Shown here: piece after piece, positions 9,065 to 61,255 of the stretch
How positions within the stretch are numbered: the first letter of the stretch is position 1
Layout: every line of letters starts with the position of its first letter
Origin: Debaryomyces hansenii CBS767
Lineage: Eukaryota; Ascomycota; Pichiomycetes; Serinales; Debaryomycetaceae
Direction: 5' to 3'
Assembly: GCF_000006445.2 (NCBI RefSeq)
Contig: NC_006046.2
Span: 1-64,000 of the forward strand
DNA length: 64,000 nt
The notes under the pieces: generated by a model
What the model saw: only the letters and a program-made list of their open reading frames with translations
Database searches by the model: none
What the model was told of the DNA's origin: nothing
Translations under genes and position numbers: made by a program

Positions 9065-11914
9065 ATGAAATCTTCTTCAATAGTTAGAACTTTAATTGCC
9101 TTAGCAGGTTCTGTATCTGGGTTAACCATTTCGGAACCAACAGTTCAGAATGGTGCAATAAATTTAGGCCTTAGAATTGGAGACGATTTAGATATCAATT
9201 CGGATGCATATCTTACCATTATTAATGCTATCCTTTCAGCTGATGTTGGTGTTGGTAGCATTAATAACAATGGTGGATTTTATTTCAAGTATGATGGTGG
9301 TATTGCTGCAGTTTCAGCGGCCGTAGCTACTGGTGACATTGGCAATGAAGGTACCATCGTGTTCAGTTCAGAAACAGACAGTCTTGCAACTGTTTTGGGG
9401 TTGACTACAGCTCTTGGTAAATTCAAAAACGGTGCAGATGGTAAAGTATATTTTGATTCACAAGATGGTGTCGCATCAGTCTATGAATTAGTAGGTGTAA
9501 ATGGATGGGAGAATGATGGATTAATATATATGAGACAATCCGACAACTTAGTTGGTACTGCACTTATTAATTCTGTTAATATTGGTGGGTTATTAAGTGG
9601 GTCCGTACTTGAAGCAACAAATGACGGCTCAATTTGTTTAGATAGTACTGCCTACACTCAACTCTTATCTATTCAAGGTGATGGATGTATGACAGTTATG
9701 AATGGTGGGTCTATTAACTCTTTGCTTGATATTGCTACAGGTGTTATTAGTCTTGATAATGACATCTATTTGGCAGATGGAAATTCTAATCTTCAAATAG
9801 GCCTTGGAAGTTTGAGTGTAGGTATTGATGGTGTTATCGATATAGGAACTGCTCCTACATATAATCTTTACGGATTTGGTGGTGGAAATGAACTTCAGAT
9901 TTTAGGACTTGGAGCTATCGATGGACTTAGTAATATTCCATTACTAGGACCTGTATTAGATCTAGTTTTAAACCTAGTAAGTGGACTTGTCGGAAATGTT
10001 ATTTTAGGACCAGATATTAGTTATGACAGTGATACCCAAATATTGACTGTTGACATGAATGTTTTACCCGCAGTCATAAATGCCGCCAAAACACTTGTTC
10101 CTAGACTTCCAAGTGGTATTACACTTTTGAGCTCTAAATATAGGCTTAACGGTGACTACGATAGTACTAAGTTTGAAGTTCAGGGTACAAATATTGTATA
10201 CAATGGAGACGTACCAAGTCAACTGGTTCCTCAAGCTTGTACTGCTTGTACCTCAGTAACTATCCCAACTATCCCAACTGGTACAGTGACTTCAAGTACT
10301 ACTTCATCCACTTCTACTGGATCTGACAACGGCTCTAGTGCTACCGGTTCTAGCAATAGTGCAACTCCAACTGGATCCGACAACGGCTCTAGTGCTACCG
10401 GTTCTAGCAATATTGCTTCTCCAACTGGATCCGACAACGGCTCTAGTGCTACCGGTTCTAGCGATAGTGCGTCTCCAACTGGATCCGACAACGGCTCTAG
10501 TGCTACCGGTTCTAGCAATATTGCATCTCCAACTGGATCTGACAACGGCTCTAGTGCTACCGGTTCTAGCAATATTGCATCTCCAACTGGATCTGACAAC
10601 GGCTCTAGTGCTACCGGTTCTAGCAATATTGCATCTCCAACTGGATCTGACAACGGCTCTAGTGCTACCGGTTCTAGCGATAGTGCGTCTCCAACTGGAT
10701 CTGACAACGGCTCTAGTGCTACCGGTTCTAGCGATAGTGCGTCTCCAACTGGATCCGACTACGGATCTAGTGCTACCGGTTCTAGCAATATTGCATCTCC
10801 AACTGGATCTGACAACGGCTCTAGTGCTACCGGTTCTAGCGATAGTGTGTCTCCAACTGGATCCGACTACGGATCTAGTGCTACCGGTTCTAGCAATATT
10901 GCATCTCCAACTGGATCTGACAACGGCTCTAGTGCTACCGGTTCTAGCGATAGTGCGTCTCCAACTGGATCTGACAACGGCTCTAGTGCTACCGGTTCTA
11001 GCGATAGTGTGTCTCCAACTGGATCCGACTACGGATCTAGTGCTACCGGTTCTAGCAATATTGCATCTCCAACTGGATCCAACAACGGCTCTAGTGGTTC
11101 AGGTTCTGACAACGGATCTGGTGGTTCAGATTCTGACAACGGATCTGGTGGTTCTGGTTCTGACAACGGATCTGGTGGTTCAGGATCTGACAACGGATCT
11201 GGTGGTTCTGGTTCTGACAACGGATCTGGTGCTACTGGTTCTGACAACGGATCTGGTGGTTCTGGTTCTGACAACGGATCTAGTGGTTCTGGTTCTGACA
11301 ACGGATCTGGTGGTTCTGGTTCTGACAACGGATCTAGTGGTTCAGGATCTGACAACGGATCTGGTGGTTCTGGTTCTGACAACGGATCTAGTGGTTCTGG
11401 TTCTGACAACGGATCTGGTGGTTCTGGTTCTGACAACGGATCTGGTGCTACTGGTTCTGACAACGGATCTGGTGCTACTGGTTCTGACAATGGATCTGGT
11501 GGTTCTGGATCTGACAACGGATCTAGTGGTTCTGGTTCTGACAACGGATCTGGTGGTTCTGGTTCTGACAAAGGATCTAGTGGTTCTGGTTCTGACAACG
11601 GATCTGGTGGTTCTGGTTCTGACAACGGATCTGGTGCTACTGGTTCTGACAACGGATCTGGTGGTTCTGGTTCTGACAAAGGATCTAGTGGTTCTGGTTC
11701 TGACAACGGATCTGGTGGTTCTGGTTCTGACAACAGATCTGGTGCTACTGGTTCTGACAACGGATCTAGTGGTTCAGGTTCTGACAACGGATCGAGTGCC
11801 TCTTCTTCCGCAGAAGTTCCTATTGCATCAGTAAATGAAAATGGTGCAAACAAAGTTGAATTAGGAGCTTTATTTATATACCCATTATTGGCTTTAATTC
11901 CTTTCGTGATCTGA
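9065..11914 (+). CDS. GPI-anchored Hyr/Iff-type cell-wall protein
   Basis: A 949-residue protein. Residues 1-19 form a signal peptide. Residues about 20-395 fit the hyphally regulated cell-wall protein N-terminal domain (PF11765 type): repeated strands with NNGGFYF, GNEGTIVF, FKNG.DGKVYF, WENDGLIY and a Cys pair near SICLD and GDGCM. A Thr/Ser stalk follows, then 14 units of 18 residues (TGSDNGSSATGSSNIASP type) and about 26 units of 9 residues (SDNGSGGSG type). The C terminus has NGA and a hydrophobic tail, a GPI signal with omega site near Asn926. It is therefore predicted to be exported, glycosylated and linked to wall glucan. In Candida such proteins act in adhesion and wall integrity, and that role is inferred here. 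Repeat number is likely to vary between strains. A decayed paralogue lies at 44090-44700. Confidence 0.92.
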   Translation: MKSSSIVRTLIALAGSVSGLTISEPTVQNGAINLGLRIGDDLDINSDAYLTIINAILSADVGVGSINNNGGFYFKYDGGIAAVSAAVATGDIGNEGTIVFSSETDSLATVLGLTTALGKFKNGADGKVYFDSQDGVASVYELVGVNGWENDGLIYMRQSDNLVGTALINSVNIGGLLSGSVLEATNDGSICLDSTAYTQLLSIQGDGCMTVMNGGSINSLLDIATGVISLDNDIYLADGNSNLQIGLGSLSVGIDGVIDIGTAPTYNLYGFGGGNELQILGLGAIDGLSNIPLLGPVLDLVLNLVSGLVGNVILGPDISYDSDTQILTVDMNVLPAVINAAKTLVPRLPSGITLLSSKYRLNGDYDSTKFEVQGTNIVYNGDVPSQLVPQACTACTSVTIPTIPTGTVTSSTTSSTSTGSDNGSSATGSSNSATPTGSDNGSSATGSSNIASPTGSDNGSSATGSSDSASPTGSDNGSSATGSSNIASPTGSDNGSSATGSSNIASPTGSDNGSSATGSSNIASPTGSDNGSSATGSSDSASPTGSDNGSSATGSSDSASPTGSDYGSSATGSSNIASPTGSDNGSSATGSSDSVSPTGSDYGSSATGSSNIASPTGSDNGSSATGSSDSASPTGSDNGSSATGSSDSVSPTGSDYGSSATGSSNIASPTGSNNGSSGSGSDNGSGGSDSDNGSGGSGSDNGSGGSGSDNGSGGSGSDNGSGATGSDNGSGGSGSDNGSSGSGSDNGSGGSGSDNGSSGSGSDNGSGGSGSDNGSSGSGSDNGSGGSGSDNGSGATGSDNGSGATGSDNGSGGSGSDNGSSGSGSDNGSGGSGSDKGSSGSGSDNGSGGSGSDNGSGATGSDNGSGGSGSDKGSSGSGSDNGSGGSGSDNRSGATGSDNGSSGSGSDNGSSASSSAEVPIASVNENGANKVELGALFIYPLLALIPFVI
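10316..11071 (+). repeat. 14 x 54-bp coding tandem repeat
   Basis: Fourteen exact-length 54-bp units inside the cell-wall gene, each encoding 18 residues. Units differ mainly at the fourteenth and fifteenth residues (NI or DS) and at DN versus DY. Variants alternate in blocks, which suggests recent unequal exchange or gene conversion. Confidence 0.95.
11072..11800 (+). repeat. About 26 x 27-bp coding tandem repeat
   Basis: The second array uses a 27-bp unit encoding SDNGS plus GGSG, SGSG or GATG. It begins where the 54-bp array ends and shares the TCTGACAACGG core with it, so the short unit probably arose from the long one. All lengths are multiples of three. Confidence 0.93.
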
Positions 11915-13446: not shown

Positions 13447-13709
13447 AACAACTGCTATTTTAATTTGTATTATTAACTGGTACTGGTACTATGAATCTTT
13501 AAAATAACAATCGTAAGATAACAGTTTCATTTAGGGCTGTTCACCATCTTCGTGAAGCCTTCAAGCCATTACCTCCCTCTGTTGTACTTGTATCGAGATT
13601 GTGCGCTCATCTCATCAAAAACTTCTTTATAGGAGGACTTTCTATCACTTTCATATTTGCCATTCTTGTCACTTTTATCATGAATTTCTTGACTTTCTTG
13701 GCTATCATT

Positions 13710-15456
13710 TTAGCTAGAACTATGTACTTCCAATATGAAATCAAGAGATTCAAAATCTAGCCTTTTACGTTTCTCATTATTTGAACTGTCCGATAGTCCA
13801 AAATCAATCAAAGAAATTTTACCTAACTCAGATACATGAATGTTTTCGAGCCTGACATCATTGTGAGAAATCCCTAACAGATGAAGTTCCTCGAGCCTTG
13901 ACTTGATCGTTGTGTGCACTTTTTTCTTATCCCACTTTTTTTCCGGAATTTCCCTTCCTAAGTATTCAAATATATGCATCGGATGATCGGCAAGTCCGTT
14001 CCAGTAACCTGAAACAAGGAGCTTAGGGAAATTAGAAGCAAACTGAGAGCTAGCAATTTTTTCATTGATTACAAGTTCATTGAAGAACATCCCATAATAA
14101 TCCTTTTTTTCTGGTATGTGGAAACACATCAAATCATTCTCTTCCCACAACCGACTAGAATAATAGTATAATTTGACAAAAACAGGGGATGGAAGTTTCA
14201 AACCAGGATAAAATTCTGCAGAATCGTATATAACTCGACAATATGTATTGCCATAAATGGCATCAAAGTTGTCACTATCGTCATTTTCTTTTACCAAAAA
14301 TCTAACTTGCTTGAGACCCCACTATCCCCACTGTCCCCACTATATGACAATTTTCCTGAAGATCCGTAAGATTTTTTAGGCAAAACGTTCAGAAATGGAT
14401 CCAGTTCTTTAGTTCTTCTTGCCACCTCAAAAGTTTTCTTCAACCTGCCCATTGTGTCAATCACATCAGCCTCATGCTTATAGAAAAATCCGGCTATTAC
14501 CGACCTCAAAGTAATGCCATGCTCCACAGTTTCTGGATCACCAATGATATAGTAGTCTATAGTCATTTTATCATCAATAATTTCATACTTAAAGAACCCT
14601 AAGAATGTTTGGTGATCTGAAATAAAAATCCTGTCGGTTCCACAGAGGAAAGCTTGGTATATATATTTCCTTAAAACCAAAGCAAATAATACCCTAGGCG
14701 TCCACTCCCTATCTGAAAAAAAGTTCCCACTTGATTGCAGCCTCAATCTTCTTCGGTTCAGCAAATTCTCAATTTGACTCTCTAAAGCTGCCTTTAATTC
14801 TTCAAATCCTTCCGTCATCTTACAGACTCCCGTTTTGTAATCACCTATCCCAAATACAATTTCGGGATATTGTATGCCCGAATCTATTTATCATATGAAT
14901 GATATCAGGTTGTATTGTTCTTCGTTGATCCAATGGGGGTCGTATAATAGATGGACTGCCAAAATAGTTGTCCATGTCACCTACATCACGATAAAGTCCC
15001 CTGATTGGGATTGCTATTTCATTAAAGTATTCTTGGAGAGCTTATTCCACATGAATAGCATCTCCGAATGGATAACGATACTTTTTGGATAAGTAATCAT
15101 CACTAAGGTTTGATTCTCTAAGAGCCTTATCAAGTGGAGCAAGGTACCTTTCTTTGAATTCATCACTACTCATCTCCCTGAAATCAGCAGTAATAAATGC
15201 ACGACTGGTATATACAAGAATAGGCATAAAAGGCATATTACCTACGTCCACGGATGCCTTACTCTTGGGCACTAGTCTCTCTGAGGAGGGTTTTGGCTCA
15301 CTTCTTTTACTTCGAATCCTTAATAATCGAGTATCTAAAAAGATTCTTGCATTCTCTTCCTCGTTATTGCGGACTCTATCATATACTTCTGGATTTATTA
15401 TAATGCGACGCTCGCTAGGATCATCGATGGTGATAGCATACCCCTGAAAAATACAT
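13710..15456 (-). pseudogene. Broken family B nuclease-kinase fusion
   Basis: The minus strand matches the intact gene at 55706-57631 almost from end to end, beginning at an equivalent ATG (MYFSG) at 15456. Breaks include a frameshift just after the start, a stop at about 15042 after GDAIHVE, a frameshift near 14870 between the PD motif (QPDII) and the GDYK motif, and a frameshift at about 14295 before the kinase-like part. The GIGDYKT segment, the HNDVRLEN catalytic loop and LIDFGLS are still present, so the decay is fairly recent. The encoded kinase-like domain is complete in one frame (14297-13710) but lacks a start of its own. Spacing and order of motifs support that the nuclease-like and kinase-like parts were one protein. 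Confidence 0.88.
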
Positions 15457-19154: not shown

Positions 19155-20454
19155 ATCTAGAGCAATTCCTTATAGCCAAATATCCCAGCCCTTTCTCTTA
19201 TTGCGATTTCTTCCATAACCTTCGTGCTTCTCATATACTTTTGATTCTTCCATTTATCGCCGACAGCTTCTTCGTAAGTGCATCGTTGCTGATACGAAAG
19301 CTTGTTGAGTTCGCTCGTTCCGTAGAAAACACCATATCCTAAATCCGTGCAGTTGAACATATCTTTGGCGTGCTTCTGAAACTCCTCGTATAGCTCGTCC
19401 ACCATCAACATCCTGTCGGACTATGGTCTGGTACTCCCGAACCAAGCATCCAACCAACTTGCCGAGGTCAGGCGTGCTGAATCTGACCGACCCGATCATC
19501 ACCTTTCGGTTATCCTGCTGGTCGACTATCGTCTGGAAAGCCGGCAACGTCCTATTGAATTTATGGTTGTATGACCGGGTGGACTCAAATGTCTGGTATG
19601 CTAGATTCTCCCAGTTTTTGATGATCTACTTGGCGTTGTTTCTCATCAACATATAGTCTGCAATGGCCAACTTCAAGAAGTAGTTGAGGCCGTCGAAGAT
19701 TTTGGCCCGCACCTTCGACTGCGCAAACCTGTCATCAGGAAGCATCAACGAATTAATCACGGCTTTCATACGTTTCAGTCGTGTCCTCTTCCATCACAAT
19801 ATACCTTTCGATCGTCTCCATCACCGCCCGCTTCACCACTTCGTCGGTGGGATTGGTCACCACTTCTTCGATGATTCGGTTACCGCATACCTTGGCAAAC
19901 GTGTAGAAAAAGCGACTGGCGTAATTTGCATATATCACCTGGGTCGTAAAAAGGACCGGCACCTTCAATATGCCCTCTCGCAACATCCGATTGTAAATGG
20001 GATGCGTGCCCTTCAAATGTGGCCTGTCCTGGAGAATATACTTCTTGACGGCCTCAAACACCGGTATACTTTCTTCCTTGTTTTCGCTGTGTAAGTACTG
20101 CGGGTATCCCTTTCCATAATATAGGTTGGCGTTGATTGTGCGGAGGAACTTGTCCTCGTGCCGGAGATGTGTATGCGGGCCTTCCATGGTTGTCATTGAA
20201 GTGGGCGGTTTGGTGTCTTCTTTTTCGCGGTATAAATAGGAAAAGCCGCACTTTTGGTTGGGAATTGCATACCCGGTTGTTCTGAAGACGTGCTGTTGGA
20301 AGTTGCAATTGACCCTGTGTTCTGTTCTAAGATGTTGATTAATGTGTGACTTTGAGGCATGATTGAAGCAAAGCTTGCAAACATTTAACTTAGATTCTTT
20401 GACGCCTGGTATCTCGGAGCCATTGGTAGAATAATGTTGTAACAAACAATTCAT
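19155..20454 (-). pseudogene. Zinc-finger family, long broken copy 1
   Basis: Starts like copy 2 (45983-46894) with MNCLLQHYS, then a C-x2-C...H-x3-H-x4-H finger (residues about 27-47), GYAIPNQKCGFSYLY and a long helical region. A 2-base deletion near 19760 (TCATACG versus TCATAAACG in copy 2) shifts the frame. The rest continues as LPAFQTIVDQQDNRKVMIGS, VRCLVREYQTIV, and after another shift MLMVDELYEEFQKHAK to a stop at 19157. It is the only copy here that keeps the apparent C terminus. GC content is higher than the surroundings. Product unrecognised. A DNA-binding or mobile-element role is possible because of the finger and the copy number. Confidence 0.8.
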
Positions 20455-21075: not shown

Positions 21076-21888
21076 CTACATGCAATCAAGATCCCATATA
21101 TTTGCGTTGGTAATCTCCGGATGCATCACACGGACATCTGCATTAAAATCACCACCGTTCCAACCCTTCAAACAGAATGATGCCATCTGCCGTTTATTAG
21201 CTTCTTGCACGCTATTGTCACATGGTTCTGAAAACATACTACCTGTCCCTTTAGTATAACACTTCTTTTTGCCGGAACTAGTCCATGAGGCTACAGCACA
21301 TGTCCAGTTTAATCCATCTACCTCGACCCACTTAATGTAGCCCTTACATTCTGGGCCTGATGAACCAATTATCATATCTGCTATCGCTGTCCCCAAAGAT
21401 GCAAAGCCGGTAATGTTATCAATGAAGGAAGCTTTAGTGTCATACCAGTTCTCTATTAGCCATACACGAGCGGTCTCTAACCTATACTTGGTTACAAAAC
21501 TATACTTCTTTAGTCTCGTCGGTGTTACCCATACTGGTAGATCAGCCGCTCTTTTTACCACACCTGTTGCGTCAGCACTGTAATTAGTCAAGATTCTATC
21601 AAAATCTTCGAACCCAAATGCTAGAGCATTAAAATTCTCATTTCTTTTCTTATTGTTGATCGCACTAATAAACTCCTGAGATATTTCTAACTGATTAAAT
21701 AATGTATCTGGCATTCTATTACCATTACCGGACCGGAGATATTCATGTGCTTCTGACGGTATGTTACTTATTAACATGGTCACTTTAGCAGTTGCGTTAA
21801 GTTTTTCTAACTCGGCCTTCAGGGGGAATGTTTCAGCTAACCCTACGCTGAGACATAACAAAAATAACCCGACGAATGATTTTAACAT
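21076..21888 (-). CDS. Secreted precursor with Kex2-type site, killer-toxin-like
   Basis: I choose the ATG at 21888 because it gives a clean signal peptide (MLKSFVGLFLLCLSVGLA); an upstream ATG at 21939 would bury it. The 270-residue product has about 110 residues of pro-region, a VVKR Kex2-type site, and then a mature part with a hydrophobic segment (FASLGTAIADMIIGSS), ECKGYIKW, and about six Cys before the end (KKCY, EPCD, FCLKGW, DLDC). This layout is that of secreted yeast killer preproproteins, but I cannot name a family, so the toxin label is inference. A related C-terminal relic lies at 5429-5887. Intact reading frame. Confidence 0.6.
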   Translation of the reverse strand: MLKSFVGLFLLCLSVGLAETFPLKAELEKLNATAKVTMLISNIPSEAHEYLRSGNGNRMPDTLFNQLEISQEFISAINNKKRNENFNALAFGFEDFDRILTNYSADATGVVKRAADLPVWVTPTRLKKYSFVTKYRLETARVWLIENWYDTKASFIDNITGFASLGTAIADMIIGSSGPECKGYIKWVEVDGLNWTCAVASWTSSGKKKCYTKGTGSMFSEPCDNSVQEANKRQMASFCLKGWNGGDFNADVRVMHPEITNANIWDLDCM

Positions 21889-30675: not shown

Positions 30676-32628
30676 CTATTCATATTCGTTTGGAGTAGGC
30701 TGACCAAATATACCACACAATTGTTGGTGTTCACTCTTGATCCTCTCAGGGTTAGCACTCACTGGATTGGAACCTAATTTATCTTCTGTGTATTCTGAGT
30801 ATCCAAAATCAATAAAATATACCTTCCCTTGAGAATATAAAATATTCCTTGGGCTTATATCTCCATGTATTATGTTATAAAGGTGGATTATATTCAATTG
30901 TTCTTTAGCTTTCTCATAGGTTTCTTCATCGCGTGGTAGAGTCTCTTTAGCCAAATACTTCAATACGATAAATGGTCCCAATGCGTGATAATAATTTCCT
31001 ATAAAGAATCTCCCGTAAACAGGTTCTTGAGCAATATAAACGCTGTTAAACTTAAAATTAAGTAAAAGCCGTTCATATGCTCGCTTCTCACATAAATATG
31101 CTCTTCGACAATTATCAAACATGTCGTGCTTTTTTATTACGTATTTATTATGATCTCTCTTTGCCTTGGCAGGGTCAAATACTTTAACAACCAATTCAAC
31201 AGTTTCATCGATGTCTTCCTTGAGATACATTTTTACGTCTTTAGAGTTGACTTTGAAAAGTTGAGAATTAAACGTAACCCCGCTTTGTACATCAATACGT
31301 TTGAACTCTCCAAGTCCAATCTTTGGCTCAATGACATGTAGCTGTCTCATAAAAGAATTGTAATTATTTTTAAAAATTTTATCAACCTTCTCACCTAGAC
31401 CGTCTAAATATGTCAAGTACTCCTCGTCTGACTTACGAACATAGTCATAAATTGCATCTAGTCCTCTTTTAACGTCATTTAATTGGTATTCGTTAGCACT
31501 AAATGCCTCATAGATGAATGAAATTAGCCCTCCTCTCAACGTAAGCCCAGATGATTGACAATCTAGAAGTCTATAATTCAAGGCTATGAATTTGCAGTTT
31601 TCAGGGCCTGTAAGTTTTTGATTGACTATTTCCATGCTTCGTTCTATATCTATTTCGATCAAGATAGTTGTATATGAGTCGGTCAACATGCCTTTGTTTG
31701 TGTGGTCAGAGAACATTTCCGCAACAACTTGAATCATAAAACTTACCATTCGTGGTTCCGTAAAATCTACCACCTTTTCACCTTTCAAGATTGGTAACTT
31801 TTTTACCTCCACGATAGCAAGAGATCTTCGATGTTTCCATTTATAATACGCCACGACATCTGGGTGCGAATGGAATATATCATTAGATTGATGTGGTACT
31901 TTGGTGTTGACTCCTGTTCGACCCGCAGTATTTTTGGTACGGATATTAATTTCAAAATTTAATAGTGCTGCTACGTATTCACATATAGGATCGAATAGAT
32001 ATTTTTTAAAATTTTCTTTATATGTATCTTCATCAGTGGATAAGACATCTGTCACAAGTATATGCTTCATGTGTAAACCAAGGAAGAGCAAGTTTGTTAT
32101 TATTCTTTTGCTTTCATCCTTATTAAAATTGCTTGAGAATATATCAGTTTTCAAGATATTTTCCAAATTAAATGCCAATCTACCTTCCAGAATTATTTCG
32201 TTGAATGATTCAAATTCAAGTTCAGAAAAAGTTTCAATAAGGACATTGTCTGTACCATGACTGGAACCAATAGCATGAAGAGTAGTAGGATTCAACAATT
32301 TTCCATCTTTGCCTTGGAATTCGTACTCCGTGAATGGCATAACGCAAAAGAAAATAAATAATTCTTTCCACTCATCTGGATGATCGTCAAAATACAACTT
32401 GTGCTTTAAGGTAACCATATCCATTTCAGATTTCTTATTAGTTCTGAAAAATTTAGATACCATTTCTAAATGGCTCATATTTTGGTGTTCACTCTTGCCG
32501 AAAATACTTCTGTAGTCGAATTTCGTAATCTCAAATTTATCAATATCTATGTCAATATCCATACCAGTATCCTCGTCATCTCCTAAAATATATCTCCTAA
32601 TATTATTACGAAAAGTATTGTTGTTCAT
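30676..32628 (-). CDS. Family A nuclease-like/kinase-like fusion protein
   Basis: An intact 650-residue protein. An N-terminal region of about 80 residues differs between copies. A middle domain carries a PD-(D/E)XK-type core: HPD (Asp257), then AIVEVKK with Glu274 and Lys276, spacing 17, inside alternating strands and helices. The C-terminal third is protein-kinase-like: VVKVF (Lys482), a helix-C Glu candidate (Glu514), hinge VLKYLA, catalytic loop HGDISPRN (588-595) and DFG (607-609). All catalytic positions seen are intact. No signal peptide or membrane segment. This order (nuclease core, then kinase) is known from Crinkler-type effectors and related transposon-derived proteins; membership is inference. 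It may act on DNA, proteins or both. Copies: 59300-61255 (intact) and relics at 926, 39830 and 40299. Confidence 0.8.
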   Translation of the reverse strand: MNNNTFRNNIRRYILGDDEDTGMDIDIDIDKFEITKFDYRSIFGKSEHQNMSHLEMVSKFFRTNKKSEMDMVTLKHKLYFDDHPDEWKELFIFFCVMPFTEYEFQGKDGKLLNPTTLHAIGSSHGTDNVLIETFSELEFESFNEIILEGRLAFNLENILKTDIFSSNFNKDESKRIITNLLFLGLHMKHILVTDVLSTDEDTYKENFKKYLFDPICEYVAALLNFEINIRTKNTAGRTGVNTKVPHQSNDIFHSHPDVVAYYKWKHRRSLAIVEVKKLPILKGEKVVDFTEPRMVSFMIQVVAEMFSDHTNKGMLTDSYTTILIEIDIERSMEIVNQKLTGPENCKFIALNYRLLDCQSSGLTLRGGLISFIYEAFSANEYQLNDVKRGLDAIYDYVRKSDEEYLTYLDGLGEKVDKIFKNNYNSFMRQLHVIEPKIGLGEFKRIDVQSGVTFNSQLFKVNSKDVKMYLKEDIDETVELVVKVFDPAKAKRDHNKYVIKKHDMFDNCRRAYLCEKRAYERLLLNFKFNSVYIAQEPVYGRFFIGNYYHALGPFIVLKYLAKETLPRDEETYEKAKEQLNIIHLYNIIHGDISPRNILYSQGKVYFIDFGYSEYTEDKLGSNPVSANPERIKSEHQQLCGIFGQPTPNEYE

Positions 32629-34247: not shown

Positions 34248-35117
34248 ATGTCGAGTTGGAACAGATTAATTAGATTTGAGGCTAACGACGGCAAAATTTA
34301 TAGAGGAGACGCTATCGTCTCGGATTCTGATTATGACATTGGTAAACAATTTGCTGAAGGGAAAACCATCAAAGCCAGGGTCGTGATTGGTAGTAATATC
34401 TTTACTGACGCCAAGGTGACTGACGAGGTATTGGAAGTTAAGAAATTATTGGGACCTCTTACTGGCGAGGATGTCCCTGTTGTTAAATGTATTGGAATGA
34501 ATTACAAGGAACATCTAATGGGTATAATCGAGCCACCACCATATCCACAACTCTTTTATAAGCCACGCACGAGTGTCGCTGACCAGAATGAGGATATTCC
34601 AATCCCACTGTTCGCACAAAATACTTGTGATTATGAAGGTGAATTATGTGTCGTCATAGGAAAGACAGGTAAAAATATAAATGAGGAAGACGCCTTGAGT
34701 TATGTTGCAGGATATGTTTCAGGAAATGATCTATCAGCTCGGGATTGGCAATACTTCCCAGAATATGCAGGAAAAGTACCACAATTGGGATTTTCTAAGA
34801 GTTTTGATAGATACGCACCTTTGGGACCAGCAATAGTTTCTTCTAAAATCATCAAAGATCCCCATGCACTTCAACTCCAAACTAGAATTAATGGCGACCT
34901 TCGCCAAAACTGTGGTACCGATGATCTTTTGTTTGGTATTTCAAGAATCATTGCCTTTATTAGTCAAGAGACTACTTTGGAACAGGGAACAGTGATTATG
35001 ACAGGTACTCCTAATGGTTGCGGTGGTATTGATGGAAAATACTTAAAAGATGGGGACCTTGTAGAGGTTACTATTGATCAAATCGGAACACTCTCTCATA
35101 AGACGAAATTCCTTTAA
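34248..35117 (+). CDS. FAH-family hydrolase
   Basis: A 289-residue fumarylacetoacetate-hydrolase-superfamily protein, cleaving or isomerising 2,4-diketo or 2-oxo acids with a divalent metal. The core begins with CIGMNYKEH (81-89). Metal ligands are likely Glu130 and Glu132 (DYEGE) and Asp161 (SGNDLSARD); Lys184 lies in GFSKSFD. The TGTPNG loop is near residue 253. The N-terminal ~75 residues and length match fungal members of the FAHD/ureidoglycolate-lyase-like group rather than true FAH (about 420 residues). The exact substrate cannot be told. Neighbours include a sugar permease and, further away, a GH88 enzyme and an SDR, so sugar-acid catabolism is plausible. A truncated copy of its 3' end opens the window. 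Confidence 0.88.
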   Translation: MSSWNRLIRFEANDGKIYRGDAIVSDSDYDIGKQFAEGKTIKARVVIGSNIFTDAKVTDEVLEVKKLLGPLTGEDVPVVKCIGMNYKEHLMGIIEPPPYPQLFYKPRTSVADQNEDIPIPLFAQNTCDYEGELCVVIGKTGKNINEEDALSYVAGYVSGNDLSARDWQYFPEYAGKVPQLGFSKSFDRYAPLGPAIVSSKIIKDPHALQLQTRINGDLRQNCGTDDLLFGISRIIAFISQETTLEQGTVIMTGTPNGCGGIDGKYLKDGDLVEVTIDQIGTLSHKTKFL

Positions 35118-35369
35118 ATATTAAATTTAGAATGATGATTTATTTAGAATCATAATTTATAAGAATGCATCTTTTCGTCTTTTATAGAATGGAAAGGGCT
35201 CTTGCTCTTTACTAATATACATAACAGCTTCTTTTTGTTTTATGTTACTTGAGAGTAAATGAGGATTTAAGAAAGATGTTAGTTTCCGTAATAAAACACT
35301 TATGAGAATATTTATTTATGTTATTGTAGTACCGTTCTCGGTGATAAGTAATCTACAATATTTGACACT

Positions 35370-35708
35370 ATGGATCAACATCCCAGACACGTGGAAGATG
35401 ATATCCTTCTGTATTTTTATCATGAAATAGAAGAGACCACTGCTAGACTTTATTGTGACATTTTGGAGGAATACCACTATTTTGGTCACGCTTCAATCAT
35501 ACCTCCGTTCTCGACAGACCAAAACTTTAAGCCGGGCATTGTCTATATGTTTTGGAATGAGGCATTAACTCATCGAAATCCAGATATTTGGTTTGTGATA
35601 AGAGATTATAAGACAGAAAACTATTTTTTAACTAAAGTACTTCAAGAATTGAAATTAGCTATGACGGACGTTTGTAGAAAAGCGTTTGAACTTGAAACGG
35701 AAGTGTAG
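35370..35708 (+). pseudogene. Fragment of family B nuclease-kinase fusion
   Basis: A 112-codon frame that matches residues about 137-245 of the intact gene at 55706. The PD motif is mutated (NFKPGIV for NFKPDIV), but RDYKTENYFLTK keeps the DYK triad part. After ELKLAMT the frame shifts and the homology ends near 35710. The kinase-like half is absent. It sits directly behind the FAH gene, and the same junction is found at 712-722. Confidence 0.82.
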
Positions 35709-40298: not shown

Positions 40299-42203
40299 CT
40301 AATTTCCCTCATTCTTCGAATCTTCATACCTTTCCGGAATTAATTGATTAAACACTCTACACAATTTTCTGTGTTTGCTTTTCCTTCTCTCAGCATTAGA
40401 ACTAACTGGTCGTAAACCCTTCTTATCGTGAAAATAATCAGAATATCCAAAATCAATAAAATATATCTTTCCCTCTGAATAAAGAATATTCCCGTTCACA
40501 AATATCTCCATGTATTATTCCGACACTGTGAATTTTTTCCAATTGCTCCTCGGCCTTTTCGTACGTCGTTTTATCTTTGGGCAATCGATCATCTTTTTCT
40601 TTCCCTTGTTCTATATATTTTAATATGAGGAATGGACCCAATGCATGATAATGCTTACCGATATTGAAAGTTCCAAAGACGCATTTCTGGTCAATATAAA
40701 CACTATTGAACAAGAAGTTATTTGGCAATTTTTTGTATGCAAGTTTCTCGCACAGGTATGCCCTGCGACAGGCGCCGAAAATATCAGTTTGTTTATCTTG
40801 GTGATCCTTATGGTCTCTTTTCGCTTTGATGAGATCAAAAACCTTCACAATAAATTGATCGTGATCCTTGACTCCCCTTAAAAAGTCCGTTATATTCTTC
40901 GTCTTCACTTTGAAAAGTTGGATATTAAACATAAACCCGCTGCACGTCAATATCATCAAAGTTTCCGAGTCCAATTTCTGTTATAAGAAGTCTCTCTTTC
41001 TGGTTCTCGATGATTTTCAATTGCATTGATGCAGTACTCCATGAATGGCATCTTATCTTTCGATGATAGTTCATCCAAGTAAGTTAAGTACTCTTCATCT
41101 GTCTTACGAATAAATTTATAAATAGCTTCCATTCCTCTCTTGATTTCTGCTAGTCGGGACTCATCCACCAGAAATGCCTCATATATATATATATGAAATA
41201 ATGCCACCTCTCAAAGTAAGGCCCGATGATTGACAATCTAAGAGTTTGTAGTTTAGAGCTATCGACTTGTCATCATTCCGATACTCATTAGTCTCGTTGA
41301 TCATCTCCAAGTTTCTCTTGATATCCACTTCGATTAAAACTGTTGTGTATGAACGACTGATAATGTAATGTTTTAGCATATTCCACCATATCTGGATAAG
41401 AGTGGAATAAATCATTTGACTGATGTGGTATTCTAGTATGGACTCCAGTCTGGCCAATGTAATTCTCTTCTACTAGTGGTTGAAACCGTAATATTGATGC
41501 AACATATCCGCATATGGGTCTGAATAAGAAGTTCATGAAATTGTTTTTGTATGCTTTCAGCATTGTATGCAATATTTGTGACAAGTTCATAATCCTGTTT
41601 AAAGCAAACTCCAAGCAACTTTTTTATTACTTTTTTTCTTTGATCTTCGCTAAAAGTATCAGAGAATAGGTCAGTTTTCAAAATACATTACAAATTAGCA
41701 GCAAGTATATCTTCCAATATTACTTGGCTTAGTGATTCAAACTCTATATCTGAAAAAGTCCCAAAAAGATTATTTTCTGTTGCCTAGCTCAGACCAGTCT
41801 TACGTAGGGTATCAGGGTCTAGCAAGTTCCCATCAGATCCTTGAAATTCATATTTGGTAAACGGCATAACACAAAAGAAGATGAATAATTCTTTCCATTC
41901 ATTTGGATGATCTTTAGAATATGACCTTACATGATCCATATCTAAGTCCAATTCATTCTCAATTTCGAGCATTTTATGCAAAATTTCTCTATAGCTCACA
42001 TTTTGATCTGGGCACTTATGGAATATTCTTCTGTAGTCGAATTTGGTAATTTCAAATGTATCAATATCAGTATTTATCTCTATCAATATCCTCACCGCCT
42101 TCCAAAATATATCTCTTAGTATTAATAAAAAAGAATCTTTGTTCATTGTAATTAAGCTAATGTTAACAAAAACTTCATTATTCTTTCTTGTGAGACGTCT
42201 CAA
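40299..42203 (-). pseudogene. Broken full-length family A nuclease-kinase fusion
   Basis: The whole family A protein can be followed on the minus strand through seven frames, so it has at least six frameshifts or stops. Preserved marks are EWKELFIFFCVMPFT, HPNEW, the nuclease-region Asp in SYPDMVEY, LNYKLLDCQSSGLTLRGG, the kinase Lys in FIVKVFD, IIHGDI and FIDFGYSDY. The EVKK strand is missing because of a deletion near 41360. Its N-terminal region differs from both intact copies. It is more diverged than they are from each other, so it is an older copy. Confidence 0.87.
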
Positions 42204-45834: not shown

Positions 45835-45985
45835 TCCATTCAATACTCCATCCATATCTCATTTCCATTTCCAATTCTAAATACCTCCCAATCAAATCAT
45901 ACCTCAACATCCCATTCCAACTCCCTCTCCAATATTTCATCCCAACTCCCTCTCCAATAATCTTCCTCAAATAATACAAATCTCA
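45835..45985. repeat. Strand-asymmetric minisatellite-like stretch
   Basis: The plus strand is almost free of G (for example CCCAACTCCCTCTCCAATA occurs at about 45939, with a close variant at 45917). It joins the permease relic to the truncated end of zinc-finger copy 2, so it sits at a rearrangement junction. Confidence 0.7.
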
Positions 45986-46894
45986 TCTCCAATTGAATTT
46001 ATGGTTGTATGACCGTGTGGACTCAAATGCCTGGTATGCTAGATTCTCCCAGTTTTTGATAATCTCCTTGGCGTTGTTTCTCATCAACATATAGTCTGCT
46101 ATGGCCAACTTCAAGAAATAGTTGATCCCGTCAAAGATTTTGGCTCGCACCTTTGACTGCGCAAACCGGTCATCGGGAAGCATCAACGAGATAATCACGG
46201 CTTTCATAAACGTTTCAGTCGTGTCTTCTTCCACCACAAAATACCTTTCGATCGTCTCCATCACCGCCCGCTTCACCATTTCGTCGGTGGGATTGGTCAC
46301 CACCTCCTCGATGATTCGGTTATCGCATAACTTGGCAAACGTGTAGAAAAAGCGGCCGGCGTAATTTTCATATATCACCTGCGTCGTAAAGAGAACCGGC
46401 ACCTTCAATATGCCCTCTCGCAACATCCGATTGTAAATGGGATGCGTGCCCTTCAAATGTGGCCTGTCCTGGAGAATATACTTCTTGACGGCCTCAAACA
46501 CCGGTATACTTTCTTCCTTGTTTTCGCTGTGTAAGTACTGCGGGTATCCCTTTCCGTAATATAGGTTGGCGTTGATTGTGCGGAGGAACTTGTCCTCGTG
46601 CCGGAGATGGGTATGCGGGCCTTCGATGGTTGTCATTGAAGTGGGCGGTTTGGTGTCTTCTTTTTCGCGGTATAAATAGGAAAAGCCGCACTTTTGGTTG
46701 GGAATTGCATACCCGGTTGTTCTGAAGACGTGCTGTTGGAAGTTGCAATTGACCCTGTGTTCTGTTCTAAGATGTTGATTAATGTGTGACTTTGAGGCAT
46801 GATTGAAGCAAAGCTTGCAAACATTTAGCTTAGATTCTTTGACTCCTGGTACCTCGGAGTCATTGGCAGAATAATGTTGTAACAAACAATTCAT
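45983..46894 (-). pseudogene. Zinc-finger family, long copy 2 (truncated)
   Basis: A 303-codon open frame, the longest uninterrupted reading of this family. Residues about 20-47 hold KLNVCKLCFNHASKSHINQH and LRTEH, a C-x2-C...H-x3-H-x4-H zinc-finger-like motif. GYAIPNQK, SFSYLYREKE-like text, TTIEGPHTHLRHEDKFLRTI and a long helical part follow. It ends with NHKFNWR where other copies read NHKFNRTLPAF, because the sequence breaks at 45986 into the minisatellite. Copy 1 and copy 3 carry the missing 3' part. Not a recognised domain family. Neighbouring upstream DNA is shared with copy 1. Whether the truncated protein is made is unknown. Confidence 0.7.
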
Positions 46895-51675: not shown

Positions 51676-52352
51676 ATGCAGCAATTTTTTAATTCCGATC
51701 CTCGTACGGAAACAGCATTGAAATCTGTAGTAGCCGTTATTTTCTATAATTCAGGTGAAGTTTGTTGTGCGGGTTCACGTCTATATATTCAAGAAGGTGT
51801 TTATGATGCATTTGTTGATAACTTCTTACAAATTGATAATTCTGACATTAAGGTAGGTGATCCATTCTTACCAGATACTATTCAAGGTTCCCGAAAATAG
51901 CGTTAATCAATTGGATAAGATTTTGAAATACATTCAGATTGGTACTAATGAAGGTGCAAAAATATTGGTGGGTGGAGAGATTACAAGGAAAGGGATATTC
52001 CATTAAACCAACTATTTTTGTCAAGGCTAATGATGATATGAGGATCGCCCAGGAAGGAATCGTCGATCCTATTATAACAATTAGTAAGATCAAAACTACT
52101 GATCATATAGTTCGTATGGCTAATAATACTGCTGATATTCAAACTTCAAACGCGAATAGAGCAATTGATGTTTCCCGTAGATTAAAGGCAGGTACCGTTT
52201 GGGTAAATACTTACAATGATTTCCACCCAATCGTTCCATTTGGTGGTGGTTATAACCAGTCTAGTATGGGAAGAGAGATGGGTGAAGGAGTATTACAAAA
52301 CTATACCCAGGCAAAGGCTGCTAGAATGGGTATTATTAAACCAAAAAATTAA
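51676..52352 (+). pseudogene. Aldehyde dehydrogenase relic
   Basis: The C-terminal half of an NAD(P)-dependent aldehyde dehydrogenase in two frames. The first (51676-51900) has FYNSGEVCCAGSRLYIQEGVYDAF with the catalytic Cys. A shift near 51895 leads to SVNQLDKILKYIQ, GGERLQGKGY-like text, KPTIFVKANDDMRIAQE, AGTVWVNTYNDFHPIVPFGG and a complete C terminus. The N-terminal half with the cofactor site is missing, and a normal EEIFGP reads EGIVDP. About 70 bases separate it from the SDR gene. Confidence 0.9.
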
Positions 52353-55705: not shown

Positions 55706-57631
55706 ATGTACTTTTCGGGCGAAGATAGTAACAATATTACGTATGATGACCCCGCAAATAAATGCATTAGGATTAATCCATCATTATATGCTAGGGTTCA
55801 AGATGACAATGAACAAAACATAAGGGTCTTTTTAGACACTCACCTTTTGAAAATAAGAAATATCTCACATAATCAAAAATTACCTACGTTGGAACATATA
55901 ATATCCAAGCATAATGCTTCAGTTTCTACTGGATCCACGACTGTGATGCTGGCACTGAATTATGTTACGAAAGCGATGATGACGGCAGAATTTAGAGAGA
56001 TCAGTAGTGATGAGTTCAAAAACACATATTTGGCTCCTCTTGATATGGTTATTAAGGATTCAAATCTCAGTAAAGAATTACTATCAAGGACGTATGATTA
56101 TCCTTTGGGAGATGCCAGACATGTGGAAGATGATATTCAGATATATTTTGATGAAGAAATAGCTAGACCAATCAAGCGTTTCTATCGTGACATCTTGGAT
56201 GAATACCACCATTTTGGTCATGCTTCAATCATACCCCCGTTTTCGACAAACCCAAACTTTAAACCCGATATTGTCCATGTGTCTTGGGATGAGGCATCAA
56301 CTCGTCAAAATCCAGATATTTGCTTTGCGATAGGAGATTATAAGACAGAAAACTATTTTTTAACTAAAGGACTTCAAGAATTGAAATTAGCTATAACGGG
56401 TTTCGTAGAAAAGCGTTTGAACTTGAAACAATTGAGACTGCATGAAAACCAGCACTTATTTGAAGATCGAGAATGGTCGCCTAGAGTTTTATGCGCATTA
56501 GTTTTAAGAAAATATCTTTATCAAGCCTTTCTCTGTGGGACAGACAGAGTGTTTATCTCAGATCATCAGTCATTTTCGGGGTTTTTCAAATATGAGATTA
56601 TGGATGATGGAAAAATGATCATAGACTACTATGTTATTAATGATCCCGAGACTGTGGAACATGGCATAACTCTAAGGTCAGCGATAGCAGGCTTTTTCTA
56701 TAAGGATAATACAGAGGCGCTCAGTACAAAAGAGAAATTCGCAGGACTAATTGAAATAAGTCAGAAGACCAAAGGACCAGATCCATTAGCGAATGTGCTT
56801 CCTCGACTTGTGGAAGAACCCACACCAAGTCGTAAACATAAACGTAGCAAGATGTCTGGGAATCAACTTCGAAAACGATTGGTAACTATAGAAGAAAGCA
56901 ATGAAGTCGACTTTGATGCCATTCGAGGTAACACATTTTGTCGCATAATATATAACCCTGCTGCATCTTTTCCTAATTTGGGATTACTGCTTCCGTCCAC
57001 AGTCTTTGTTAAATGGTACAACTATCCTGAGCAGGCTCAAGAAAATTTTCCAGATAAAGATAGTTACTACGACATGTACGTCAATGAGCTTGAAATTAAT
57101 GAGATGCTTGCGAATTCGTCGTTTGCTGCAAACTTCACAAAGCTTATAGTTTCTGGATACTGGAATGGTATTCCAAGCCAGCCGATGCATATATTTGAAG
57201 ATTTGGGAGAAGAAATACCATCTACTGAATGGGATAAATTTGGGGTGCATAAAGTAGTTAAGGAGAGACTTGAGGAAATTCATCTGTTGGGAATTTCGCA
57301 TAATGATATAAGGCTCGACAATATACATGTTTCAATATCGGGAAGGGTCACTTTGATAGATTTTGGGTTGGCTTTTTATCCAAGTAGTGAAGAGCAGAAA
57401 AAAAGAGACTTTGAAGCCCTTGATGAGCTTGTCCCAATTACTGGTTATGGGATTTCTGGGGAGGATAAAATACGCGATGTTGTCTTGGCTAAAAACGAAA
57501 ATAATGAAAGTGGATGGAATGATCATGCAAATTCCAGTGACGAAATAGTCTTTGACGAACTGGTTTTAGAGTCTGATGACACCCCAGGGTCTACTAAGGT
57601 TGATTTCAATTCGAAATATGATGAAACTTGA
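55706..57631 (+). CDS. Family B nuclease-like/kinase-like fusion protein
   Basis: An intact 641-residue protein and the only complete family B member here. The N-terminal ~170 residues are helical. A PD-(D/E)XK-like core follows: FKPD (Asp188) and IGDYKTE (Asp211, Lys213), then the helix LQELKLAI. A basic linker lies near 374-392 (SRKHKRSKM, LRKR), possibly a nuclear signal. The kinase-like domain has FVKWY (Lys436), a helix-C Glu candidate (Glu461 or Glu463), the catalytic loop HNDIRLDN (532-539) and DFG (552-554). An acidic tail ends the protein. Family B differs from family A in nearly all sequence but has the same domain order. Effector, toxin-like or defence roles are inference. Broken copies: 13710-15456 and 35370-35708. 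Confidence 0.8.
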   Translation: MYFSGEDSNNITYDDPANKCIRINPSLYARVQDDNEQNIRVFLDTHLLKIRNISHNQKLPTLEHIISKHNASVSTGSTTVMLALNYVTKAMMTAEFREISSDEFKNTYLAPLDMVIKDSNLSKELLSRTYDYPLGDARHVEDDIQIYFDEEIARPIKRFYRDILDEYHHFGHASIIPPFSTNPNFKPDIVHVSWDEASTRQNPDICFAIGDYKTENYFLTKGLQELKLAITGFVEKRLNLKQLRLHENQHLFEDREWSPRVLCALVLRKYLYQAFLCGTDRVFISDHQSFSGFFKYEIMDDGKMIIDYYVINDPETVEHGITLRSAIAGFFYKDNTEALSTKEKFAGLIEISQKTKGPDPLANVLPRLVEEPTPSRKHKRSKMSGNQLRKRLVTIEESNEVDFDAIRGNTFCRIIYNPAASFPNLGLLLPSTVFVKWYNYPEQAQENFPDKDSYYDMYVNELEINEMLANSSFAANFTKLIVSGYWNGIPSQPMHIFEDLGEEIPSTEWDKFGVHKVVKERLEEIHLLGISHNDIRLDNIHVSISGRVTLIDFGLAFYPSSEEQKKRDFEALDELVPITGYGISGEDKIRDVVLAKNENNESGWNDHANSSDEIVFDELVLESDDTPGSTKVDFNSKYDET

Positions 57632-59187: not shown

Positions 59188-59299
59188 CGCATTGGCAATT
59201 TGCCGCAAATAGTTTGCCATGCGACACTTATCTCGCAGCTTACCATTTACTTAATATATACGTGTATTTTATATATCAACCCATACATTCTTCATTTGA
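59188..59299 (-). repeat. Conserved 3' flank of family A gene
   Basis: Almost identical to 30565-30675. Here it begins at GCATTGGCAATTTGCCGC immediately next to the zinc-finger fragment, which fixes the unit's edge to a few bases. Confidence 0.9.
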
Positions 59300-61255
59300 T
59301 TATTCATATTCCTTTGAAATTGGCTGACCAAATATACCGCACAACTGTTGGTGTTCACTCTTGATCCTCTCAGGGTTAGCACTCACTGGGTTGGAACCTA
59401 ATTTATCTTCTGTATATTCTGAGTATCCAAAATCAATAAAATATACCTTCCCTTGAGAATATAAAATATTCCTTGGGCTTATATCTCCATGTATTATGTT
59501 ATAAAGGTGGATTATACTCAATTGTTCTTTAGCTTTCTCATAGGTTTCTTCATCGCGTGGTAGAGTCTCTTTAGCCAAATACTTCAAGACGATAAATGGC
59601 CCCAATGCGTGATAATGATTTCCTATAAAGAATCTCCCGTATACAGGTTTTTGAGCAATATAAACGCTGTTAAACTTAAAATTAGGTAAAAGCCGTTCAT
59701 ATGCTCGCTTCTCACATAAATATGCTCTTCGACAATTATCAAACATGTCGTGCTTTTTTATTACATATTTATTATGATCTCTCTTTGCCTTGGCAGGGTC
59801 AAATACTTTAACAATCAATTCTACTGTTTCATCGATGTCTTCCTTGAGATACATTTTTACGTCTTTAGAGTTGACTTTGAAAAGTTGAGAATTAAACGTA
59901 ACCCCGCTTTGTACATCAATACGTTTGAACTCCCCAAGTCCAATCTTTGGCTCAATGACATGTAGCTGTCTCATAAAAGCATTGTAATTATTTTTAAAAA
60001 TTTTATCAGCCTTCTCACCTAGACCGTCTAAATATGTCAAGTACTCCTCGTCTGACTTACGAACATAGTCATAAATTGCATCTAGTCCTCTTTTAACGTA
60101 ATTTAATTGGTATTCGTTAGCACTAAATGCCTCATAGATGAATGAAATTAGCCCTCCTCTCAACGTAAGGCCAGATGATTGACAATCTAGAATTCTATAA
60201 TTCAAGGCTATGAATTTGCAGTTTCCAGGGCCTGTAAGTTTTTGATTGACTATTTCCATGCTTCGTTCTATATCTATTTCGATCAAGATAGTTGTATATG
60301 AGTCGGTCAACATGCCTTTGTTTGTGTGGTCAGAAAACATTTCCGCAACAACTTGAATAATAAAACTTACCATTCGTGATTCCGTAAAATCTACCACCTT
60401 CTCACCTTTCAAGATTGGTAACTTTTTGACTTCCACGATAGCGAGTGATCTTCGATGTTTCCATTTATCATACGCCACGACATCTGGGTGCGAATGAAAT
60501 ATATCATTAGATTGATGTGGTACTTTGGTGTTGACTCCTGTTCGACCTGCAGTATTTTTGGTACGGACATTAATCTCAAAATATAATAGTGCTGCCACGC
60601 ATTCACATATAGGGTTGAATAGATATTCCTTAAAGATTTCTTTGTATGTATCTTCATCGGTGGACGAGACGTCAGTCACAAGCATATACTTCATGTGTAA
60701 ACCAAGGAAGAGCAAGTTTGTTATTATTCTTTTACTTTCATCCTTATTAAAATTGCTTGAGAATATGTCAGTTTTCAAGATATTTTCCAAATTAAATGCC
60801 AATCTACCTTCCGGTATTATTTTGTTGAATGATTCATATTCAAGTTCAGAAAAAGTTTCAATAAGGACATTGTCTGTACCATGACTGGAACCAATAGCAT
60901 GAAGAGTAGTAGGATTCAACAATTTTCCATCTTTGCCTTGGAATTCGTACTCCGTGAATGGCATAACGCAAAAGAAAATAAATAATTCCTTCCACTCTTC
61001 TGGATGGTTTTTAAAGTACAATTTTTGACTTTGAGGCTCCAAGTCTACATCAGACGTATTTCCAATTCCAAAAAATTTATACACCATTTCGGTATGGGTG
61101 ATATTTTGATGGGCACTTTTATCGAATAATGTTCTATAATTGAAACTGGTAATCCCAAATAGACCAATATCAGCATCAACATCCATGTCTCTGTGTTCAC
61201 CGCCGCGTTCCAAAATATATCTCCTAATGCTATTAGGAAAAGTGTTGTTATCCAT
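59300..61255 (-). CDS. Family A nuclease-like/kinase-like fusion, second intact copy
   Basis: A 651-residue protein, nearly identical to that at 30676-32628 from about residue 85 to the end and clearly different before it. Motifs: HPD (Asp258), AIVEVKK (Glu275, Lys277), LIVKVF (Lys483), HGDISPRN (589-596) and DFG (608-610). Most differences downstream of residue 85 are conservative or silent, as expected for a recent duplication or gene conversion. The sharp change near residue 85 suggests a conversion boundary or selection for a new N terminus. The 5' and 3' flanks also match. Its N-terminal 80 residues hold no signal peptide. Confidence 0.8.
   Translation of the reverse strand: MDNNTFPNSIRRYILERGGEHRDMDVDADIGLFGITSFNYRTLFDKSAHQNITHTEMVYKFFGIGNTSDVDLEPQSQKLYFKNHPEEWKELFIFFCVMPFTEYEFQGKDGKLLNPTTLHAIGSSHGTDNVLIETFSELEYESFNKIIPEGRLAFNLENILKTDIFSSNFNKDESKRIITNLLFLGLHMKYMLVTDVSSTDEDTYKEIFKEYLFNPICECVAALLYFEINVRTKNTAGRTGVNTKVPHQSNDIFHSHPDVVAYDKWKHRRSLAIVEVKKLPILKGEKVVDFTESRMVSFIIQVVAEMFSDHTNKGMLTDSYTTILIEIDIERSMEIVNQKLTGPGNCKFIALNYRILDCQSSGLTLRGGLISFIYEAFSANEYQLNYVKRGLDAIYDYVRKSDEEYLTYLDGLGEKADKIFKNNYNAFMRQLHVIEPKIGLGEFKRIDVQSGVTFNSQLFKVNSKDVKMYLKEDIDETVELIVKVFDPAKAKRDHNKYVIKKHDMFDNCRRAYLCEKRAYERLLPNFKFNSVYIAQKPVYGRFFIGNHYHALGPFIVLKYLAKETLPRDEETYEKAKEQLSIIHLYNIIHGDISPRNILYSQGKVYFIDFGYSEYTEDKLGSNPVSANPERIKSEHQQLCGIFGQPISKEYE

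Follow-up and report, generated by a model that had tools for sequence, protein, structure and literature searches.

The window analysed here, the first 64,000 nucleotides of contig C4 of Debaryomyces hansenii CBS767 (12,181,948 bases in 8 contigs), carries members of two gene families, A and B, in which a nuclease-like core is followed by a protein-kinase-like domain. A third family with the same design, C, was discovered in the rest of the genome. Our preferred reading, by analogy and held with a little less than even confidence, is that the three families consist of self-neutralising poison-antidote genes, with both functions in a single protein, working like the Spok spore killers. It starts from what the analysis shows: the structure of the genes, the conservation of their motifs, purifying selection, amplification, exchange of segments and a divergence located 5′ of the PD motif. 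The nuclease-kinase design itself is already known, from Spok and from the Crinkler (CR) effectors. What is newly found is that synonymous divergence is concentrated upstream of the PD motif, together with segment swaps between subfamilies.

Family A is represented, as in the preliminary description of this DNA, by two intact open reading frames (ORFs), which lie on the minus strand: copy 1 (30676..32628, 650 residues) and copy 2 (59300..61255, 651 residues, 90% identical to copy 1). The plus-strand translation of 30676-32628 contains many stops. In copy 1, read as nuclease-kinase-like from paralogue conservation, a divergent mosaic N-terminal segment lies 5′ of the PD motif (residues 1-230, 31939..32628, minus). 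The putative PD-(D/E)XK core covers residues 200-335 (31624..32031, minus) and includes Glu200, Asp257, Glu274, Lys276 and Gln300. The compact, Bud32/RIO-like kinase domain (residues 441-650, 30679..31308, minus) contains Lys482, HGD (Asp590) followed by Asn595, and DFG (Asp607), and it ends 41 residues past DFG. The intact family B gene (55706..57631, plus strand, 641 residues) combines DUF3698 with a kinase-like part. Its divergent segment (residues 100-187, 56003..56266, plus) stops at the PD motif, its putative nuclease core (residues 141-335, 56126..56710, plus) contains Asp188, Asp211 and Lys213, and its kinase-like domain (residues 401-580, 56906..57445, plus) contains Lys436, HND (Asp534) followed by Asn539, and DFG (Asp552). 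All the motif residues previously listed for copy 1 and for the family B gene are present at their places. The translations were made with code table 12. At CTG columns, Leu is found in other members in 10% (A/C) and 19% (B) of cases and Ser in 8% and 12%, compared with Leu in 37% and 44% at TTG columns; these counts speak against Leu, and by themselves they do not demonstrate Ser.

Six-frame searches of the genome returned 77 rows for family A, from which 52 were taken as A and 13 (entered as 10) as C, after exclusion of 11 kinase-only cross-matches to B genes and of one duplicate. Of the 69 rows for family B, 60 were taken as B, the rest comprising 8 rows that cross-matched A or C and a single short fragment of B. 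After merging, the genome holds 27 elements of family A, 40 of B and 10 of C, and many A and B elements are broken. A DUF3698 search gave 38 rows in this genome and none in 14 control genomes. Conservation was assessed on 38 long open frames of 523 to 677 residues (9 A, 10 C and 19 B), including B_L038, which is interrupted by a contig end, and C_L028, whose N-terminus is short by about 100 residues. The alignment left out copies with internal stops, such as those at C3:147579, C4:1576985, C5:2003960 and C1:20066. Searches of viral contigs and of bacterial and archaeal genomes, with a profile-derived pattern and then tblastn, retrieved no relatives of A/C or B. In the yeast itself, 51 expanding gene families are reported in PMC4055711, some of them enriched for unknown function, and no title or abstract opening among those listed by searches of openly licensed PMC papers names the present genes as nuclease-kinase proteins.

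The middle domain is very probably a PD-(D/E)XK nuclease, as judged from its motif and conservation. The conserved D...(D/E)xK signature of this superfamily is found in A/C as well as in B. Asp257, Glu274 and Lys276 are each kept in 18/19 sequences of A and C, the exception being C_L028, where all three are gone, and Gln300 is invariant. In family B, Asp188 and Lys213 are kept in 18/19 members and Asp211 in 19/19, B_L052 having Asn at both 188 and 213. The preliminary description had held that the assignment would fail if relatives did not conserve these residues; the paralogues do conserve them, with one sequence out of 19 in each set having lost triad residues. Copy 1 of family A contains 13 D-x(10-30)-[DE]xK triples and the family B gene 12, and in each protein just one is kept whole in at least 18 of 19 paralogues, namely the proposed triad. 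Positions kept to that extent number 73 of 650 in copy 1 and 195 of 641 in B. Although paralogues are not independent, this retention is meaningful because A and C are only 24-29% identical.

The nuclease part of family B coincides with Pfam DUF3698 (PF12479), matched by 19/19 members at E<=1; in the window copy the domain (residues 180-285, 160.5 bits for a cut-off of 25, E 1.1e-46) spans Asp188 to Lys213, whereas no A or C member matches it. The name DUF3698 occurs in no paper of the openly licensed PMC literature searched. We propose, from the sequence, that this domain without assigned function is a PD-(D/E)XK-like nuclease core. According to a crude propensity count, strands flank both sides of the motif in A, but past ExK, where a helix is expected, the count calls strand in B and partly so in A. 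AlphaFold2 models from window-only alignments reached a mean predicted local distance difference test (pLDDT) score of 35.6 for B and 33.1 for A, and Foldseek with the A model (pLDDT 33) gave 0/118 matches at E<=0.001, as expected at such pLDDT. The B middle-domain profile retrieved one HNH endonuclease at E 0.18, which is chance level. A nuclear-signal-like basic stretch, K[RH]KRSK, lies between the nuclease and kinase parts of the gene at 55706-57631 (residues 377-382); it is present in 6/6 B1 copies and in 0/13 other B copies.

The kinase motifs are conserved as well. Lys482, His588, Asn595 and Asp607 are found in 19/19 A and C sequences and Asp590 in 18/19 (Asn in C_L027), and Lys436, His532, Asp534, Asn539 and Asp552 are all kept in 19/19 B sequences. 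The DFx triplet reads DFG in 9/9 A and 19/19 B members, and DFA, DFC or DFT in 10/10 C members. Past DFx, the chain continues for 41-44 residues in members of A, for 10-36 in those of C and for 58-92 in those of B. With hhalign, A/C and B align in their kinase halves at a probability of 98%, and for the nuclease halves this probability is 0.3%; the earlier statement that A and B share little sequence is thus right for the nuclease halves but not for the kinase halves. The RIO1 cut-off of Pfam is passed by the window A copies (26.5 bits for a cut-off of 22 in copy 1), and Pkinase matches remain under their cut-off in copy 1 and in the window B gene. Bud32 models match all 19 A/C members at E<=1, the window copy scoring 40.2 bits for a cut-off of 125. 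With Bud32/RIO-type kinases, A/C share a compact kinase with HGD..N and DFG, but the match spans about 45-55 residues only and, to our knowledge, neither Bud32 nor RIO carries a fused nuclease-like half. In the PDB, kinases match the A/C and B profiles mostly near the catalytic loop among the 60 best rows. FunK1, which we take to be the name of the Pfam fungal-kinase model, is absent from the Pfam hits of A/C and B members at E<=1, and this identity was rejected.

Whole genes are under purifying selection. The ratio of nonsynonymous to synonymous substitution rates (dN/dS) ranges from 0.29 to 0.45 inside nine close groups and from 0.16 to 0.36 across five wider comparisons, a further one (B_L052) being saturated and not computable. 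Higher ratios are seen in short regions, the A2 kinase (0.98, with dS 0.014) and the B2 tail (2.10, with dS 0.022). Downstream, at codons 300-650 of A/C and 260-575 of B, members of close groups share 95-100% identity with their nearest copies. Exceptions are B3 (84-90%) and the lone copies A_L023, C_L027, C_L028, B_L040, B_L041 and B_L052.

The distribution of differences along the genes was followed as nucleotide difference per 20 codons within subfamilies. Divergence peaks at codons 41-80 (26-34%) and 181-200 (24%) in A1, and at codons 41-80 and 141-200 in A2. For C pairs, a peak is found at codons 61-80 in 3/4 (22-45%) and at codons 161-200 in 3/4 (up to 18-33%). In B1 and B2 it falls at codons ~101-200 (11-27%); codons 1-100 of B1 are conserved (1-3%), so the divergent patch is internal there. 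In B3 the 20-codon profile does not reveal any upstream/downstream contrast. Lesser peaks lie at codons 581-600 of B1 (20%) and at both ends of C_L032/C_L033. When the genes are split at the PD Asp and synonymous differences are counted at same-amino-acid codons only, synonymous divergence is greater upstream in 13/14 close pairs (p<0.05 in 12; p=0.09 in A_L017/A_L018), these pairs being not fully independent. The pooled counts are 253/2608 upstream and 207/5635 downstream, and amino-acid differences are commoner upstream in 14/14 pairs. We relied on this test because synonymous clustering, measured as a 60-codon maximum, is clear in 6/15 pairs only (at most 114 of 5000 shuffles) and is not seen by that measure in pairs such as C_L026/C_L031 and B_L049/B_L051.

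Segments have also been exchanged between subfamilies. B_L041 is identical to B_L044 at codons 151-175, the two being 55-91% alike in the remaining windows of codons 1-400. A_L022 is 99% identical to A_L017 at codons 1-50 and 46-88% further on, and it is 93-100% identical to A_L021 from codon 226 onward. The upstream divergence may be read in two ways: either gene conversion homogenises the 3′ two-thirds of the genes, or diversity is favoured upstream. Positive selection on the divergent segment is not shown, as the N-terminal region has a dN/dS of 0.18-0.46.

Spok is the best comparator for this ensemble, ahead of Crinkler, although the preliminary description, which suggested possible selfish, competitive or defensive roles, did not name it. 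As described in PMC6660238 and PMC12693581, Spok proteins combine an N-domain, a predicted PD-(D/E)XK nuclease and a predicted eukaryotic-like kinase in one chain. The nuclease Lys is reported as required for killing and the kinase for resistance (PMC6660238, PMC9972908, PMC12693581), and in PMC9972908 the killing by SPOK1 is inferred to proceed through DNA damage in E. coli and yeast. The same domain order characterises A, B and C and the Spok proteins (Podospora Spok1-4, Fusarium FuSpok), here by motifs alone. Like Spok genes, which are multi-copy, duplicating and accompanied by pseudogenes (PMC6660238, PMC12693581), the present families are amplified and partly broken. Their kinase, compact in both cases, has HxD..N and DFx (HRN in C_L027), Spok kinases being thought nearer to eukaryotic-like kinases (PMC6660238), and the N-terminal side is divergent in both; for Spok, domain 1 has been put forward as a possible determinant of specificity (PMC6660238). 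The hosts differ, since A, B and C come from a budding yeast and the distribution section of PMC6660238 places close Spok homologues in Sordariomycetes and one Eurotiomycete. A, B and C are Spok-like in design, by motifs and layout, and are not assigned as Spok members.

By this analogy, the middle domain would be a PD-(D/E)XK nuclease that damages DNA, and the C-terminal compact kinase, acting in cis or in trans, would protect from it the cells in which the gene is present. The variable N-terminal segment would decide which partner or target is recognised, whereby copies would become distinct. A cell or spore that contains the protein but not the gene would be poisoned, and the spread and retention of subtelomeric blocks would be favoured. 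The nuclease fold and activity, the kinase activity, the antidote role and the role of the variable segment are all inferred from sequence. The conserved order of N-domain, triad and kinase in the 38 long open frames of three families supports such a scheme. Two copies have lost nuclease residues and kept those of the kinase, C_L028 (all three) and B_L052 (Asp188 and Lys213). This is the state expected of a resistance-only allele, which these copies may represent, although C_L028, being N-terminally short, may simply be decaying.

Several observations weigh against a Spok-like mode of action. Conservation and purifying selection agree with the maintained nuclease-kinase unit proposed at first, but its middle domain is matched by no restriction endonuclease (REase) profile: profiles built from 9/19 A/C and 6/19 B sequences gave no REase match in Pfam or PDB at E<=10, so that the superfamily assignment rests on motif, conservation and spacing. 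The Cys cluster that precedes the kinase in Spok, C-x3-C-x13-C-x5-H-x7-H, is found in 0/38 long open frames with a strict as well as a loose pattern. There is no conserved QxxxY after the catalytic Lys in these frames either; it occurs within 110 residues of the Lys in 4/38 (C_L024, C_L025, B_L049 and B_L051), at positions that are not shared, and A/C have the invariant Gln300 in its place. As both features are missing, these genes are proposed to work like Spok, not to be Spok. C_L027 (C5:584185) keeps the nuclease triad and the N-terminus, with HRN in place of HxD, and stops 10 residues past its DFC, a difficult case because a poison lacking its antidote should kill, unless protection comes in trans from other copies. 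B_L049/B_L051 has no upstream synonymous excess (p=0.73). Lastly, core and kinase are 95-100% identical within most subfamilies, so the kinase sequence is unlikely to provide copy-specific protection by itself.

Protection could be made copy-specific by the variable segment, outside the kinase, which may set which molecules pair, each kinase then acting on its own nuclease. The poison-antidote reading could accordingly be extended to a three-family arsenal in which the shuffled stretch preceding the nuclease active site would serve as a self-recognition code, for example through copy-specific dimerisation, letting near-identical kinases silence only their own nuclease; we regard this extension as speculative and rather doubtful.

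The genomic layout bears on how these genes are propagated. With limits of 65 kb for subtelomeric location and 4 kb for A-B proximity, both chosen by us, 21/27 A and 28/40 B elements lie within 65 kb of a contig end, whereas family C is chromosome-internal (0/10). A B element lies within 4 kb of 16/27 A elements genome-wide and of 15/21 subtelomeric ones; random placement gives a mean of 5.1 for the latter (0/5000 reach 15) and same-end shuffles a mean of 7.3 (15 reached in 1/5000). The 16 nearest A-B pairs are on opposite strands every time (9 head-to-head, 7 tail-to-tail), and 20/21 subtelomeric A elements are oriented toward the contig end, the exception being C5:20407. Blast comparisons of the flanks revealed stretches copied together with both an A and a B gene, in differing subfamily combinations. 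The pairing with fixed orientation is accounted for by duplication of a subtelomeric block of fixed polarity, and therefore no working A-B pair is claimed.

Two other functions appear unlikely to us, to the same degree. The first is defence, inside the cell, against DNA of invaders (linear cytoplasmic plasmids, retroelements or viruses), in which the variable segment would recognise, the nuclease destroy and the kinase control. A recognition arms race would also produce a divergent segment beside a conserved nuclease core, and the A/C kinases match the PADLOC anti-phage kinase models PD-T4-6 and MAD6, several models being matched by 19/19 A/C members. However, the PADLOC match is confined to the kinase, and to its catalytic loop for the member shown; no link to any invader was found, and the repeated decay seen at chromosome ends is rather what selfish or dispensable genes tend to show. 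According to the second, these are domesticated or ordinary cellular regulators, such as nucleic-acid-binding signalling kinases, passively amplified with subtelomeric blocks and using the triad for binding rather than cleavage. Purifying selection on whole genes, the interior location of family C, as for stable genes, and the fixed relative orientation of the nearest A-B pairs, as passive block duplication gives, would all suit such regulators; the retention of a catalytic-type triad along with full kinase motifs, and the concentration of divergence upstream of the active site, would not.

An LxLFLAK- or HVLVVVP-like motif (we take the latter to be a Crinkler header motif) was found in 0/38 long open frames and no Crinkler model is among the Pfam hits at E<=1, so Crinkler identity was rejected. 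The Crinkler likeness noted in the preliminary description therefore holds for the C-terminal order only, REase-like then kinase, as in CR effectors such as CRN8, which, unlike A, B and C, carry CR header motifs (PMC5289972). CR-type or other secreted effectors directed at competitors or hosts are very improbable, even though a REase-kinase C-terminal half makes up about one-sixth of CR C-termini according to that review and a hydrophobic stretch (15-residue mean 1.75) lies close to the N-terminus of C_L024 and C_L025, since in the other 36 sequences the top 15-residue hydropathy mean within the first 45 residues is at most 0.97, from hydropathy only, with no signal-peptide predictor run. The top hydropathy values among the 38 proteins are those of L031 (C6:1105430; 19-residue mean 1.88) and of the N-termini of L024 and L025 (C3:356771 and 359712).

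Genome searches identified further remnants of both families in the window. Family A has left a broken copy in pieces (40302..42146, minus) and a kinase-end remnant close to the contig end (929..1279, minus), and family B a broken copy in pieces (13596..15434, minus) and a remnant placed head-to-head with family A copy 1 (35298..35708, plus). Another repeated gene (19753-20454, 45983-46894 and 58365-59246, all minus) has a weak OrsD-like match (E 0.02, under the cut-off) and 22 genome rows; its longest open frame, of 1122 residues at C5:9841, includes one stop within the match, and copies lie directly 3′ of the family A genes at window 59300 and C6:23683. The first 300 nucleotides contain low-complexity G/C/A runs followed by a stretch that we take to resemble M13/lacZ cloning-vector sequence, and this end of the contig has the look of low-quality Sanger reads containing vector. 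A direct repeat of 261 bases (91% identity) occupies 322-582 and 34980-35240, the second unit overlapping the end of a FAA-hydrolase ORF. A Hyphal_reg_CWP cell-wall protein of 949 residues with long arrays of 54- and 27-base repeats is encoded at 9065-11914 (plus). The protein of 270 residues at 21076-21888 (minus), with a start that looks by eye like a signal peptide and no Pfam hit, could be a secreted subtelomeric protein. At 51676-52352 (plus), an apparent aldehyde dehydrogenase gene is split in two ORFs, the second of which matches positions 344-460 of the Aldedh profile.

If the genes were instead defence genes, they would represent a new class of yeast genome defence. If they are Spok-like, nuclease-kinase poison-antidote drive would extend to the budding yeasts and would make up a substantial content of the chromosome ends of one of them, and DUF3698 would gain a function. 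The near-identical series differing mainly 5′ of the nuclease site would also make the question of self and non-self testable in laboratory yeast, and a self-recognition code, if true, would answer how one protein can be both a poison and a specific antidote.
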